Below are positions 24 through 20,837 of a stretch of DNA of 21,382 nucleotides, in pieces. The position numbers were made by a program, and so were the translations under genes. Where the stretch lies: IMG/VR virus record IMGVR_UViG_3300009436_002330, positions 1 through 21,382 of that record, one strand, 5' to 3'. The DNA is from a virus. The notes below the pieces were generated by a model. It was given only the letters and a program-made list of their open reading frames with translations. It did not search any database and was not told the origin of the DNA. Position 1 is the stretch's first letter. The number at the start of each line of letters is the position of its first letter.

Positions 24-53
24 AAAAAAAGGGAACCATTACGATTCCCTTTT
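24..53 (-). terminator. Intrinsic terminator of the tmRNA unit
   Basis: On the minus strand AAAAGGGAA and TTCCCTTTT can form a 9-bp stem with a 9-nt loop, followed by a run of U. It begins immediately after the tmRNA discriminator base and would end the transcript carrying the basic protein and the tmRNA. Confidence 0.85.
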
Positions 54-54
54 G

Positions 55-453
55 TGGAGGTGGCGGGTGTCGAACCCGCGTCTTGTTCGTCTCACCCATA
101 AAGGACTACACGTTTAGAACAGTATTTTCTAATACTTCGAAATAGAAAGTTATTTAGAGGAAACTAACATCCTCGGTCCAATCCTTATTTAAAGAGACGA
201 CCTTACACCTCTAACACTTTTAAGTGGTGTCACACTTTAAGGACTTCTGTTCCAAGGTATATGTCCACCGACCCGTTGTTAACACTAACTTAGTTATGCG
301 TTAACTGCGACATTATCAGATACAAGACCTAATACTGCCATTTCACTATAAACGTTGCCGTCTGAAAATTTCCATCATGGATTAAAGTCATAGATGAAGT
401 TTGACTACGTGCCCCGTACGATTGACAACGCCAATCAATGCCAACTCACCCCC
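55..453 (-). ncRNA. ssrA: One-piece transfer-messenger RNA (tmRNA)
   Basis: tmRNA rescues stalled ribosomes: its tRNA-like half enters the A site and its internal reading frame adds a degradation tag. The 5' heptamer GGGGGTG (453-447) pairs with CACCTCC near the 3' end to make a 7-bp acceptor stem with one G-U pair. The T arm is GCGGG-TTCGACA-CCCGC, followed by the acceptor strand and discriminator A at 55. CCA is not encoded. The resume codon is GGC (359-357), preceded by CAGAC with the conserved A at -4. The tag frame runs to TAA at 296-294 and gives 21 residues, beginning GNVYSEMAVL and ending DNVAVNA. GTTAAC repeats at 278-283 and 300-305 form a helix around the stop codon, as in helix 5 of known tmRNAs. 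The 5' end lies 2 nt after the stop of the preceding ORF, so it is probably cut from a longer transcript. Boundaries come from pairing and should be good to a few nt. Confidence 0.95.
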
Positions 454-1817: not shown

Positions 1818-1937
1818 TTTGGTGTTAAAGGTTTTTATCTTTTTTCATTTGATACACTAAGTATCCGTTCCATAATGTCACGACTACTGATGCCAAAATC
1901 CAATCTGTTATACTCATCTCTCTTTGGTGTTAAAGGT
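1818..1937. repeat. 15-bp direct repeat flanking the 30-aa gene
   Basis: TTTGGTGTTAAAGGT occurs identically at 1818-1832 and 1923-1937, 105 bp apart. Read on the minus strand, the first copy begins at the discriminator base of the CAT tRNA and the second contains the stop codon of the 30-aa gene. The pair therefore brackets the microprotein gene and abuts a tRNA 3' end. Confidence 0.8.
1825..1917 (-). CDS. Single-span membrane microprotein, 30 aa
   Basis: A 30-residue frame: MSITDWILASVVVTLWNGYL followed by VYQMKKDKNL. Residues 5-23 make one hydrophobic segment followed by a basic tail, the usual signature of a small N-out/C-in membrane protein. It lies 19 nt downstream of the CAT tRNA and ends inside a 15-bp direct repeat whose other copy directly follows that tRNA. 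Very short frames arise by chance, but the clean membrane segment and the compact strand context argue for a real gene. Confidence 0.45.
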   Translation of the reverse strand: MSITDWILASVVVTLWNGYLVYQMKKDKNL

Positions 1938-2010
1938 GGACCTTGATGGACTCGAACCATCGACCTATCCGTTATGAGCGGAGTGCTCTAACCAACTGAG
2001 CTAAAAGTCC
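1937..2010 (-). tRNA. tRNA with anticodon CAT (Met, or Ile2 if modified)
   Basis: A cloverleaf can be drawn: acceptor GGACTTT/AAGGTCC, D stem GCTC/GAGC, anticodon loop CTCATAA, T arm GATGG-TTCGAGT-CCATC. The first pair of the anticodon stem is a C/T mismatch. Position 1-72 is paired, which argues against an initiator. CAT could read AUG or, with lysidine at C34, AUA; the sequence alone cannot decide. A tRNA for AUA would fit an AT-rich phage. CCA is not fully encoded. Confidence 0.93.
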
Positions 2011-2015
2011 ATTTG

Positions 2016-2089
2016 TGAACCCGGTAGGATTCGAACCTACGACCGTCTCCTTAGAAGGGAGATGCTCTATCCAGCTGAGCTACGAGTCC
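2016..2089 (-). tRNA. tRNA-Arg (TCT)
   Basis: Acceptor GGACTCG pairs with CGGGTTC, with two G-U pairs. The D stem is GCTC/GAGC, the anticodon stem TCTCC/GGAGA with loop CTTCTAA (anticodon TCT), and the T arm GTAGG-TTCGAAT-CCTAC. It reads AGA/AGG; AGA is the main Arg codon in the phage genes here. No CCA is encoded. It sits 5 nt from each neighbouring tRNA, so the three form one processed transcript. Confidence 0.95.
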
Positions 2090-2094
2090 ATATG

Positions 2095-2180
2095 TACCGA
2101 AGAACGGAATCGAACCGTCACGAACATTACTGTTCAAGGGATTTTAAGTCCCTCGTGTCTACCAATTCCACCACTTCGGC
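2095..2180 (-). tRNA. tRNA-Leu (TAA)
   Basis: Acceptor GCCGAAG pairs with CTTCGGT (terminal G-U). The anticodon stem AGGGA/TCCCT encloses loop CTTAAAA with anticodon TAA. A long class II variable arm is present, and the T arm is GACGG-TTCGATT-CCGTT. It reads UUA, a very common Leu codon in the window. It is the first gene of the minus-strand unit and CCA is not encoded. Confidence 0.95.
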
Positions 2181-4089: not shown

Positions 4090-6105
4090 CTAAATAAGGG
4101 GGGTATTTTTTAGAATTTCTAAATTACCCTCTTTTATTTTTAATATAATACCCATCTCTTTCGTGATATCACCCGTTAAGATATTATCACTAATGAAATC
4201 TTCACACAGATTCTGAATAATTCGCTTTATAGGTCTTGCACCATACTCTTCCTCAGAATTACGTTTTATTATCTCATCAACGACTGTTTTATGAAAAGTA
4301 ATTTCATAGTTACTTTCCGTAAGTCTTTCACTTAAAATATTTAATTCAATCTGAACAATTTTCTTTAGTGATTTATTATCTAATTTGTCAAAAACAATTA
4401 CATCATCAATTCTATTTAGGAATTCAGGGGTAAATTGATTCTTTAATGACTTTCTAATAATTGAATCTTTAATCTTTTCGTTATTACTATCATCACTAAA
4501 TCCAATTCCACCACCAAATTCAGAAACTTTCTTAGCACCTATATTAGATGTCATGATTATTAATGTGTTCGTGAAATTAATTTTTCTACCAAACGAATCT
4601 GTTAGGTGACCTTCATCCAATATCTGTAGTAATAGGTTAAAGACATCCTTATGACCTTTTTCTATCTCATCAAATAAGACAACAGAAAATGGGTTGTTCT
4701 TAATCTTCTCAGTAAGTTGTCCACCTTCATCAAATCCAACATAACCAGGAGGGGACCCAATAAGTTTAGAAACGTTGTGTTTCTCCATAAACTCACTCAT
4801 ATCCACCCTAACAATTTTATCAGGATCACCAAATAAGGTTTTAGCTAATGTTTTTGCTAAGTGTGTTTTACCAACACCTGTTGATCCTAAAAACATAAAT
4901 GACCCAATTGGTTTGTTAGAACCTCTAACACCAACACGGTTCCGTCTAATTGATTTGGAGATGATCTCAACCGCATTATCCTGACCTATAACATTCTTAG
5001 ATATTGTCTTTTCTAATGATAGAAGGTTCTTAGTCTCTTTTGTGTCAAGTTTAGTGATTGGGACACCCGTCATCTCGGTTATGATATTATATACATCATC
5101 AATAATAACGGGTTTCTTATTTAACTTTTGTTCAACACTCCACTTTTTCTTTTCTGACTCTAATTTCTTAATGACCTTTTTCTCATTATCTCTTAGTTCC
5201 GCCGCTTTCTCATAATCTTGATTCCTAACCATTTCTTGTTTATCCAACTTAATTAGATCTGATTGGTTTCTCAGTTTTTCGATAATAGCGGGAATTTTCA
5301 CATTAATTTTCTTTTCAGAACCTAATTCATCAAGAATATCTATTGCCTTATCGGGGAACTGTTTATCGGTAATGTATCTTTTAGATAAACTAACGATTGT
5401 TTCAATGACATTATCTTGGTATTCGACCATGTGATAATCCTCATAAGAATCTTTTAGGTTTTTTAGAATATCTATTGTTTCATCTGTAGTTGGTTCAGTT
5501 AGGACGATCTTTTGAAATCGTCTAACCAACGCACTATCTTTTTCAATATTCTTCTTGTATTCGTCGAATGTGGTTGCTCCGATACATTGTATTTCTCCCC
5601 TCGCTAATGCAGGTTTAAGGATATTTGCGGCGTCCATTGATCCTGATGCGTTTCCCGCACCGACCATTGTATGAATTTCATCTATGAATACAATTACATT
5701 TGGTGCATCTTGTAATTCATTTAATATTGCCTTAATTCTTTCCTCGAACTGACCTCGGTACTTAGTTCCCGCAACTAATGATGTTAAATCAAGGGACATT
5801 ATACGTTTATCTATTAGATTAGTCGGACATGATCCATCATTAATCATAAGTGCGAGTTTTTCTACTAACGCAGATTTACCAACCCCCGCATCTCCAACAA
5901 TAATGGTATTATTCTTCTTTTTCCTTGAGAGAATTTGAGCAATACGTCTAACTTCTTTATCACGACCGATTATTGGATCGATTAAACCTTGTTCAGCAAG
6001 TTTAATTAAATCTCTTGAAAAATTATCTAAAATTGGGGTTGAACTCCCTTTCTTTCCTTTACGTTGTTGTTGAGGTGCTCCCTCTTCAAAAAATTCTACA
6101 GACAT
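4090..6105 (-). CDS. ClpC/ClpA-like AAA+ unfoldase lacking the N domain
   Basis: A 671-residue Hsp100 protein that unfolds proteins by ATP-driven threading. AAA-1 has Walker A GDAGVGKS (71-78), Walker B VIVFIDE (137-143), GATT (177-180) and Arg finger region LVRRFQ (193-198). A short middle region (about 280-325) contains a UVR-like segment NQDYEKAAELRDNEKK, as in ClpC, rather than ClpB's long M domain. AAA-2 has Walker A GSTGVGKT (407-414), pore loop GYVGF (454-458), Walker B VVLFDE (475-480) and sensor region EFLNRIDD. GGGIGF (531-536) sits where ClpC/ClpA carry the VGF/IGL loop that docks on ClpP. The roughly 150-residue N domain that binds substrates and adaptors is replaced by about 25 polar residues. 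No clpP is present here, so it would use host ClpP. Divergent from Hsp20. Confidence 0.93.
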   Translation of the reverse strand: MSVEFFEEGAPQQQRKGKKGSSTPILDNFSRDLIKLAEQGLIDPIIGRDKEVRRIAQILSRKKKNNTIIVGDAGVGKSALVEKLALMINDGSCPTNLIDKRIMSLDLTSLVAGTKYRGQFEERIKAILNELQDAPNVIVFIDEIHTMVGAGNASGSMDAANILKPALARGEIQCIGATTFDEYKKNIEKDSALVRRFQKIVLTEPTTDETIDILKNLKDSYEDYHMVEYQDNVIETIVSLSKRYITDKQFPDKAIDILDELGSEKKINVKIPAIIEKLRNQSDLIKLDKQEMVRNQDYEKAAELRDNEKKVIKKLESEKKKWSVEQKLNKKPVIIDDVYNIITEMTGVPITKLDTKETKNLLSLEKTISKNVIGQDNAVEIISKSIRRNRVGVRGSNKPIGSFMFLGSTGVGKTHLAKTLAKTLFGDPDKIVRVDMSEFMEKHNVSKLIGSPPGYVGFDEGGQLTEKIKNNPFSVVLFDEIEKGHKDVFNLLLQILDEGHLTDSFGRKINFTNTLIIMTSNIGAKKVSEFGGGIGFSDDSNNEKIKDSIIRKSLKNQFTPEFLNRIDDVIVFDKLDNKSLKKIVQIELNILSERLTESNYEITFHKTVVDEIIKRNSEEEYGARPIKRIIQNLCEDFISDNILTGDITKEMGIILKIKEGNLEILKNTPLI

Positions 6106-11212: not shown

Positions 11213-11238
11213 AAAGTGGTCAATAGACCACTTTTTTT
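11213..11238 (+). terminator. Intrinsic terminator before the terminase gene
   Basis: AAAGTGGTC-AATA-GACCACTTT is a perfect 9-bp hairpin followed by four more T. It ends the pre-terminase unit and overlaps an in-frame upstream GTG, which argues that the terminase starts later, at 11252. Confidence 0.85.
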
Positions 11239-11248
11239 GTATTTATTG
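11239..11248 (+). promoter_or_regulatory. TATTTATT motif before terminase
   Basis: GTATTTATTG lies between the terminator and the terminase ATG, only 3 nt from the ATG. It matches the recurring late motif, but if it is a -10 element the transcript would be nearly leaderless. The role is uncertain. Confidence 0.3.
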
Positions 11249-11251
11249 GAT

Positions 11252-13033
11252 ATGGATAAACAGAAACTCATACAGTTAAAAGAATATGCTAAGATCATGA
11301 AGGACACTCCTTATGCTCTTAAAACATATTTACAGACATTTGACAATACTCAAAAGAGATATGTACCATTAGAGTTATTCCCCGATCAAATTGAACTTAT
11401 ACATGATTACGATAATTATAACGAAAACATTACACGTAAGTACAGACAAGCGGGTGTATCTACAGTAACCGCGGCTTGGTTATCTAAAAGAATCCAAACC
11501 GCAAAACCAACTAACCCCGAGAGAATTCTAATTATTGCCAACAAACGTGATACTGCGATTGAGATGGCTAATAAGGTTCGTGGTTTTTTAGATCAATGGC
11601 CCGAATGGATGAATGTTGGATTTTCACCTGATAAAAACTCAGAGAGTCGTTTTAGAATGAATAACGGATGTGAAGTTAAAGCGGTTGCAACCTCAGCGGA
11701 TGCACTTCGTGGATACACACCTACCGTGTTGATATTTGATGAAGCCGCGTATATTGATGCTGGTGAAGATTTTTGGGGTGCGTGTATGGCATCGTTGTCT
11801 ACGGGTGGTAAGGTTATACTTATTTCAACACCTAACGGTTATGATCCAATATATTATGGAGTATACGACCAAGCACTAAGAAAAATGAATGATTTTAAAA
11901 TTACCGATTTAAGGTGGTTTAAAGATCCTCGTTATGCTGGTGACCTTAAATGGTTAAAGGTGGATGATATCATACATTACATGTTAAATAGAGAGCAATA
12001 TGTTGATGAGGATATCACACTTAATGAAGGTTGGGATCGATACGAAGAATTACATGAATTAGGTTACAAACCCTATTCTCATTGGTTTGAGAATATGGCA
12101 AAGAAATTTAAGTACGATAAGAGAAAAATTGCACAGGAATTAGAATGTGATTTCTTAGGTTCGGGTGATGGTGTTATATCAAATACTATACAAGAGAAGA
12201 TTAGGAAAACAATGATTACCGAACCAATTGAAAAATATATGCAAGGAACATTGTGGGTTTGGAAAGAACCTGTAATGGGACATCGTTATATTATGGGTGT
12301 TGACGTTTCTCGTGGTGATAGTGCTGATGCATCTTCAATATGTATTATTGATTTTGATGAGGGTGAACAAGTATTAGAATATGTTGGTATGATACCACCT
12401 GATGATTTAGCGTCTATTGTTTATAAATGGGGAACACTATATAATGCATTCGTAGCAACTGATATAACAGGTGGTATGGGTATTGCAACATCTCGTAAAT
12501 TACAGGAGTTAGGTTACAAAGACCAATACGTTGATGGTGTTAACTCACAAAACAAGTGGGAATACAATAAAAAGGCACAAGAAAAGATACCTGGTATCAG
12601 TTTTAATAATAAGAGAACTCAAATTGTTGCAAGTTTTGAAGAAAACTTAAGACATGGTTTTAAAGTAAAATCATCTCGTCTATTAAATGAATTGAATACA
12701 TTTGTTTATGTTAATGGTAGACCTGACCACATGAAAGGTGCACATGACGATGCAATTATGGCAATGTCAATTGCAATGTATGTTGGAGATATTTGTTTTA
12801 CACAGTTAAAACGTAACGACACCGCAAACAAAGCAATGTTAGATTCGTGGGTATTTAGTGAAAGAACTTATGATACTCAAAAGTCGTTTTACTCCTACGG
12901 TACTGCGTTTGATGCGATTGGTTCTATGAGTACTGACCCGTCACCATACCCGATAGGACAGAAAGATGCGAGTAAGGAACAGTACATGGAACATAATTGG
13001 TTATTTGGTAAATCAACATATAGATCAAGATAA
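11252..13033 (+). CDS. 17: Terminase large subunit (gp17-like)
   Basis: A 593-residue DNA-packaging motor with ATPase and headful nuclease domains. The N-terminal ATPase carries a variant Walker A, KYRQAGVSTV (63-72), where the usual GK(S/T) lysine is missing and the conserved RQ is kept, as in several terminases. Walker B is VLIFDEAA (159-166, D163 and E164), followed by the coupling motif ISTPNGY (191-197). The C-terminal RNase H-like nuclease has acids at D351 (MGVDVSRGD), D404 (ATDITGG) and D499/D500 (HDDAIMAMS). The ATG at 11252 is preferred over an upstream GTG that lies inside the terminator hairpin. In T4, genes 18 and 19 follow gene 17; here the portal follows directly. Confidence 0.97.
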   Translation: MDKQKLIQLKEYAKIMKDTPYALKTYLQTFDNTQKRYVPLELFPDQIELIHDYDNYNENITRKYRQAGVSTVTAAWLSKRIQTAKPTNPERILIIANKRDTAIEMANKVRGFLDQWPEWMNVGFSPDKNSESRFRMNNGCEVKAVATSADALRGYTPTVLIFDEAAYIDAGEDFWGACMASLSTGGKVILISTPNGYDPIYYGVYDQALRKMNDFKITDLRWFKDPRYAGDLKWLKVDDIIHYMLNREQYVDEDITLNEGWDRYEELHELGYKPYSHWFENMAKKFKYDKRKIAQELECDFLGSGDGVISNTIQEKIRKTMITEPIEKYMQGTLWVWKEPVMGHRYIMGVDVSRGDSADASSICIIDFDEGEQVLEYVGMIPPDDLASIVYKWGTLYNAFVATDITGGMGIATSRKLQELGYKDQYVDGVNSQNKWEYNKKAQEKIPGISFNNKRTQIVASFEENLRHGFKVKSSRLLNELNTFVYVNGRPDHMKGAHDDAIMAMSIAMYVGDICFTQLKRNDTANKAMLDSWVFSERTYDTQKSFYSYGTAFDAIGSMSTDPSPYPIGQKDASKEQYMEHNWLFGKSTYRSR

Positions 13034-20337: not shown

Positions 20338-20369
20338 AAAAGGGGGGGACATTGTCTTCCCTTTTTTTT
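20338..20369 (+). terminator. Strong terminator after the capsid gene
   Basis: AAAAGGGGGGGAC and GTCTTCCCTTTT pair (with G-U pairs and one bulged G) around a short loop, followed by further T. It ends the late head unit. Confidence 0.85.
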
Positions 20370-20396
20370 ATGCTTTATTTTCTGTATATTCTAACT

Positions 20397-20837
20397 ATGG
20401 ATTGGACAGACTATTTTATCAATATTGCAGAACAAGTAAAGGAGAAGTCTAAGGACATTAATACCAAAATTGGTACAGTTATAGTCGGAAAAGATAAAGA
20501 GATCCTTAGTACGGGTTATAATTCATTTCCTCGTGGTTTAAATGACGAATTAGATGAGAGACAAGAACGACCTGAGAAATACTTTTGGTTTGAACACTCT
20601 GAGAGGAATGCAATCTACAATGCAGCACGTATTGGTGTATCTTTAAAAGAATCTACCGCATATCTAACCTCAGGATTACCCTGTATGGATTGTGCAAGGG
20701 GATTAGTACAATCGGGGGTTGTAAAAATAGTATGTAAAGAAGTGTGTACTACTAAAAATCAAGGAAAGTGGGAAGAACAACAAAAACGTTCTTTACTTAT
20801 GCTTTCTGAGTGTGGGGTAGTAGTCGAGTTTTATTAA
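20397..20837 (+). CDS. cd: dCMP/deoxycytidylate deaminase
   Basis: A 146-residue zinc-dependent deaminase that converts dCMP to dUMP, feeding dTMP synthesis in an AT-rich phage. Zinc and catalytic residues are in FEHSERNAI (H67, E69; HSE replaces the usual HAE) and LPCMDCARG (C96, C99). The core fold begins DINTKIGTVIVGKDK and GYNSFPRG. The ATG at 20397 is chosen because the upstream extension is hydrophobic, crosses the capsid terminator and does not match the family. The T4 homologue is gene cd. Its last 41 nt overlap the 3' end of the convergent cupin-like gene. No clear promoter was seen. Confidence 0.95.
   Translation: MDWTDYFINIAEQVKEKSKDINTKIGTVIVGKDKEILSTGYNSFPRGLNDELDERQERPEKYFWFEHSERNAIYNAARIGVSLKESTAYLTSGLPCMDCARGLVQSGVVKIVCKEVCTTKNQGKWEEQQKRSLLMLSECGVVVEFY

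Follow-up and report, generated by a model that had tools for sequence, protein, structure and literature searches.

A genuine, well-formed one-piece tmRNA gene lies at positions 52–453 (minus strand) of a 21,382-nucleotide stretch of viral DNA (IMG/VR record IMGVR_UViG_3300009436_002330, positions 1–21,382; hereafter the window). Its tag is unlike any Bacteroidota tag sampled and belongs to a phage tag family that, as judged from sequence comparison, is under constraint at the peptide level. The tag family occurs together with the gene of a ClpC-like unfoldase, which suggests, rather than proves, a phage-own tag-and-destroy pair. The initial annotation had laid its weight on the AVNA ending of the tag. 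That emphasis was not upheld: the ending is a lineage quirk within a family mostly ending in -VA. The interpretation, which is partly supported, moves instead to the tag of the whole family and to the unfoldase found with it.

A cmscan search gave a full-length match to Rfam RF00023 at 52–453 on the minus strand, with a score of 73 bits against a gathering cut-off of 47 (E = 6.3e-27). The one-piece tmRNA claimed earlier at 55–453 was thus confirmed, the covariance model spanning 52–453; ARAGORN run on the window did not call a tmRNA at this position. The T arm and the 3′ acceptor strand occupy 56–79 (minus), and pairing with 453–447 yields the acceptor stem GGGGGTG/CACCTCC. This stem contains the G3–U70 wobble, the alanine identity pair, which is kept in all 24 sequences of an alignment of relatives. 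Of the 44 pairs predicted from the same alignment, 29 show one or more compensatory changes. The tmRNA also scored above the cut-off in 12 relatives that were found via the terminase and the neighbouring glycosyltransferase. A P5-type stem around the stop codon, GUUAACGC/GUGUUAAC (278–305, minus; fold z −2.8), is retained in the relatives although its sequence differs. The gene therefore shows the resume codon, the open tag frame and the stop within a stem that characterize RF00023. Position 55 is the discriminator base, and positions 52–54 read CAA at the place of an encoded CCA. The 3′ end is ACAA instead of ACCA, so CCA is not encoded here; several relatives have ACCA and others ACTA.

The tag frame runs through 294–359 (minus), from the resume codon GGC at 359–357 to the stop codon TAA at 296–294, as read from the Rfam alignment and the translation. 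It encodes 21 residues, GNVYSEMAVLGLVSDNVAVNA. The covariance model placed the resume codon in the frame proposed by the initial annotation, and the claimed 21-residue tag with its non-LAA end was recovered. The frame is conserved in relatives. Among 22 distinct relatives, pN/pS was 0.61 in the tag frame, as compared with 0.83 and 1.07 in the two alternatives; the latter hold 50 and 27 stops, and the tag frame is free of internal stops. The lowest pN/pS and the lack of internal stops support the assigned frame.

The AVNA ending is not an assembly error, because it is also present in a second assembly, IMGVR_UViG_3300009441_000008, in which the tmRNA is 99.75% identical. The ending is rare, being confined to the window and this one other IMG/VR record. 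ssrA tags read by ClpXP have a C-terminal Ala–Ala, whereas the window tag ends in NA and its family mostly in VA. Host tmRNAs with the same ending were sought among 32 Bacteroidota genomes and none was found: 31 tags, 9–10 residues long, end in AA (mostly LAA or MAA), and the 32nd was a bad ARAGORN call, a mis-parse. A search of 395 Bacteroidota genomes at 21 residues also came back empty but, having no positive control, is left out of account. Compared with the tmRNA at L242:11835–12236, the window gene is a mosaic, with 78% identity in the 5′ domain, 65% in the tag and 94% in the 3′ domain; its 5′ half looks either swapped or fast-evolving.

These features bear on the origin of the ending. 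In the window sublineage, the stem around the stop codon has been remodelled into the two arms given above, and the arm codons spell V–N–A. Since these codons sit in the rebuilt stem, the ending of four residues may have come about as a side effect of an RNA change. We consider it an even chance that AVNA arose merely through RNA restructuring or recombination in the sublineage and carries no meaning at the protein level, a reading compatible with the others discussed below. The V–N–A coding of the stem, the mosaic structure relative to L242 and the restriction of the ending to one further record all point this way. Against it, the terminal Ala and the VAV core are kept, indicating that the peptide is not wholly free to drift.

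The window tag falls within a phage family of approximately 50 distinct tags of 20–22 residues, which was assembled from DNA-pattern scans, a Clp scan and profile searches. Its members follow the pattern GN(V/T)xxK(M/L)xxxGL...VA or, more broadly, G(N/D/E)(V/T/I)xxx(M/L)xxx(G)(L)xxx...VxVA; one family tag reads GNVLDKMATIGLIREEAAVVA. The constrained positions are G1, GL at 11–12 and the terminal Ala. A tally of 48 GL-containing tags gave a final Ala in 47 and a final Ser in one; the penultimate residue is Val in 38, Ala in three, Gly in three, and Thr, Asn, Lys or Glu in one each. The tags of an additional sublineage end in KVAA or NVAA. The other tmRNA-bearing viral contigs retrieved by a T-arm scan encode tags that mostly end in AA and have no GL core. 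Another unusual viral tag, EADEILARLGFQEAALVA, was observed in L088 and L107, on contigs without the Clp of the tag family. Named phages searched at the DNA level gave T-arm matches only, with no cultured relative bearing a family tag among them. In LR756508, a huge phage with a distant Clp and a tmRNA match, simple parsing gave no readable tag.

The initial annotation had proposed that tagged proteins might be redirected to another unfoldase, and the window itself supplies a concrete candidate that co-occurs with the tag family. The gene at 4090–6105 (minus) encodes a 671-residue double-AAA protein, identified as ClpC-like by domain matches, a structure-database match, a tree and sequence motifs. 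Its closest PDB protein is ClpC. Both AAA domains carry Walker motifs and pore loops, the M region is short and of the UVR type, and the ClpP-binding (I/L/V)G(F/L) loop is present as IGF. The N-terminal adaptor-binding domain is absent, the D1 region starting at about residue 25; bacterial homologues mostly have some 120–190 extra residues upstream. We therefore class the protein as ClpC-like and not as a full ClpC. By sequence, the unfoldase is apparently intact and has its ClpP loop. ClpB gave the top NCBIfam score, and this identity was rejected on the short UVR-type M region and the IGF loop, since in ClpB the M domain is long and a ClpP loop is missing. None of the NCBIfam models for ClpA, ClpB and ClpX reached its cut-off with the window protein.

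The same architecture is seen in the relatives. The Clps of the clade measure approximately 665–735 residues in the frames read, as compared with mostly 810–850 for bacterial ClpC. The Walker and pore-loop motifs are preserved apart from conservative substitutions, and the ClpP-docking loop (I/V/L)GF occurs in 42 of 43 readable sequences, G041 (ISF) being the exception. The tree places all 26 of its tag-family Clps in a single clade (support 100/100), which groups with Bacteroidota ClpC at moderate support (91/83). In G033 (C1:16074–18066), clp is split over two frames covering residues 1–225 and 230–671, through either a frameshift or an assembly error.

The virus is a T4-like phage, probably of Bacteroidota. 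We infer the host from the grouping of the Clp, from terminase and capsid matches that include, among named phages, Flavobacterium phage immuto, and from the lack of Shine–Dalgarno-like motifs (0 of 16 genes). Placement of the phage and of its relatives relied on the T4-type large terminase (11216–13033, plus). A glycosyltransferase gene (PF13712; 767–1432, minus) is the upstream neighbour of the tmRNA here and in several related sublineages. Genes for tRNA-Met, tRNA-Arg and tRNA-Leu were located at 1935–2180 (minus) by ARAGORN and Rfam scans, and a gene of the cytidine/dCMP deaminase family lies toward the right end (20352–20837, plus).

The association of tag and unfoldase was assessed in the T-arm scan, which was not selected for the tag family. 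The family tag and the Clp (identity of at least 57%) occurred together in 11 of 11 phages, and no close Clp homologue was found in the 38 tmRNA phages with other tags, two of which had distant homologues. Fisher's test yields p = 3e-11, a value that overstates independence, as the carriers form one clade. Clp was found in 61 of the 73 phage records searched; the 12 misses are contigs that end too early, or relatives for which no tmRNA was found either. At each of 22 distinct loci, the two genes share a strand and Clp comes first, 2.1–6.5 kb upstream of the tmRNA. The reverse test, run on 80 viral loci with this Clp, placed a tmRNA within 10 kb and on the same strand in 31, one of these being truncated by the end of its contig. 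At least seven more Clp loci, on long contigs of one sublineage, have the tmRNA on the same strand approximately 14–25 kb away, as computed from contig coordinates, and the rule that the tmRNA always lies within 6.5 kb of Clp was dropped for this reason. Most of the remaining Clp loci without a tmRNA are explained by contig ends. An apparent lack of tmRNA in G002, G004 and G026 was rejected, their contigs stopping short of where it would lie. Three long Clp-bearing contigs (G545, G553 and G558) gave no convincing match to the tmRNA model. The outgroup G034 (48% in terminase) has neither Clp nor tmRNA between terminase and glycosyltransferase. By terminase, every carrier falls within a single clade (identity of at least 59%), so the association largely reflects shared descent and the counts are not independent events.

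Accessory genes accompany the pair in some relatives. A ClpP gene is present in six tag-family records (G041, G042, G046, G066, G082 and G089; L314–L319), the best match being NCBIfam NF011091, below its cut-off as checked for G041. G041 thus encodes its own ClpP beside a ClpC with the ISF loop. A seventh ClpP was detected in G035, where neither tmRNA nor Clp was found. SmpB was found in G092 alone (G092:C1:618–1052, L406); the gene adjoins the tmRNA in convergent orientation, with an HNH-like ORF in between. The window holds neither a ClpP nor an SmpB gene; with the tmRNA lying 52 bases from its start, one flank of the gene is outside the window. In G041 (L404:8295–11747), seven tandem leucine-rich-like ORFs, starting with MEKETLKKI... 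or MKKETLKKI..., lie between tmRNA and clp.

With these results in hand, we propose the following mechanism. Ribosomes stalling during infection would receive the phage tmRNA, predicted from its sequence to be functional in these T4-like phages, and would add the lineage-specific tag of 20–22 residues. The tmRNA would be charged by the host AlaRS and loaded with SmpB borrowed from the host, or with the phage's own in the one relative encoding it. The tag would serve as a substrate signal for the phage ClpC without N domain. Because this protein has no adaptor domain, recognition is proposed to proceed perhaps through the GL core and the small hydrophobic end; we identified no adaptor or tag-binding site for the tag. 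The phage ClpC would then dock on host ClpP, or on phage ClpP in some relatives, and degrade the tagged protein. That phage trans-translation feeds its own ClpC in this manner is our best explanation as a whole, held at a little below an even chance. The stronger version is more doubtful. It envisages a private degradation channel, in which the phage's own tag with its GL core and -VA end is read by its own adaptor-domain-free ClpC, largely orthogonal to host ssrA/ClpXP, and which is completed by phage ClpP or SmpB in some phages. Host ClpXP would read the phage tag poorly, because it prefers Ala-Ala-COO− and its KM goes up when the two C-terminal residues are altered; for E. coli ClpXP, replacement of the penultimate Ala increases KM and hardly affects Vmax (PMC7652416).

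The main rival is that the tmRNA does nothing but free ribosomes late in infection, the tagged proteins passing to host ClpXP, ClpCP and Lon. The tag would then have drifted, and Clp and Hsp20 would be a separate chaperone or disaggregase that merely shares the accessory region. We regard this combined reading as a serious possibility, though on balance not a probable one. The Hsp20 gene (PF00011; 6279–6650, plus) diverges from its neighbour clp, both here and in many relatives (including L404, L405 and L519–L559), and such a conserved pair fits a chaperone role that does not involve the tmRNA, which speaks against a dedicated tag–unfoldase pair. So does the VAA ending of several tags, which host ClpXP may read. 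The 14–25 kb separation in one sublineage, the three long Clp contigs in which no tmRNA was detected, and the occurrence of tmRNAs in phages for which no pairing with ClpC has been reported (PMC9004378, PMC7162821) also favour rescue. It is less easily reconciled with a tag whose length and sequence have been kept among deeply diverged phages, or with the absence of the tag-family Clp from phages whose tmRNAs carry other tags. Moreover, the ClpP loop is kept, which a pure disaggregase would not need, and ClpP itself is encoded by some tag-family relatives.

E. coli does degrade -VA endings, LVA among them. It is quite unlikely that the tag was selected as a poor substrate of host ClpXP so that truncated proteins of the phage, or the host's ssrA traffic as a whole, would be spared: most tags do end other than in Ala–Ala and penultimate changes raise the ClpXP KM in E. 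coli (PMC7652416), but small hydrophobic -VA ends are not clearly protective, VAA occurs in several lineages, a polar penultimate Asn, Lys, Glu or Thr is limited to single tags, and a phage-borne unfoldase, sometimes with ClpP, argues against mere protection.

In its overall plan, G3–U70 pair and stop-codon stem, the window gene resembles the bacterial one-piece tmRNA of the Bacteroidota type (RF00023), and it shares its G-type resume codon with part of the Bacteroidota. The tags differ, the phage one having 20–22 residues, a GL core and a -VA end, and the host one 9–10 residues and mostly LAA or MAA. Phage-encoded ssrA is likewise known from mycobacteriophages Bxz1 and Wildcat, Bacillus phage G, Melnitz, flavophage Calle and huge phages (PMC4131195, PMC9004378, PMC8776804, PMC7162821); the Melnitz tmRNA is two-piece, unlike that of the window. 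Ten phages with tmRNA have been listed (PMC4131195), and tmRNA was reported in 402 of 18,146 genomes (PMC9004378) and in Calle (PMC8776804); huge phages carry both tmRNA and SmpB (PMC7162821). The phage unfoldase shares with Bacteroidota ClpC the two AAA rings, the UVR-type M domain, the DFGxGVGF ClpP loop and a neighbouring tree position, and differs in having no N domain and approximately 670 instead of 850 residues. The jumbo phage AP-J-162 is similar in combining tmRNA, several Clp genes and Hsp20, but its Clp set includes ClpX, and neither linkage nor a tag family has been described (PMC11242549). Our literature search, with subscription journals largely outside its reach, found neither a phage tmRNA paired with a ClpC unfoldase nor a tag family tied to phage ClpC.

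On the question of why phages carry tmRNAs, this lineage offers a tag that is conserved as a peptide, is unlike the host-type tags sampled and travels with a specific unfoldase gene. It raises the testable question of whether a virus brings both a tag and the machine reading that tag. If this is true, the tag and its ClpC would constitute a new orthogonal degron–unfoldase tool, and GL-tag tmRNAs would be a marker for the phage clade.
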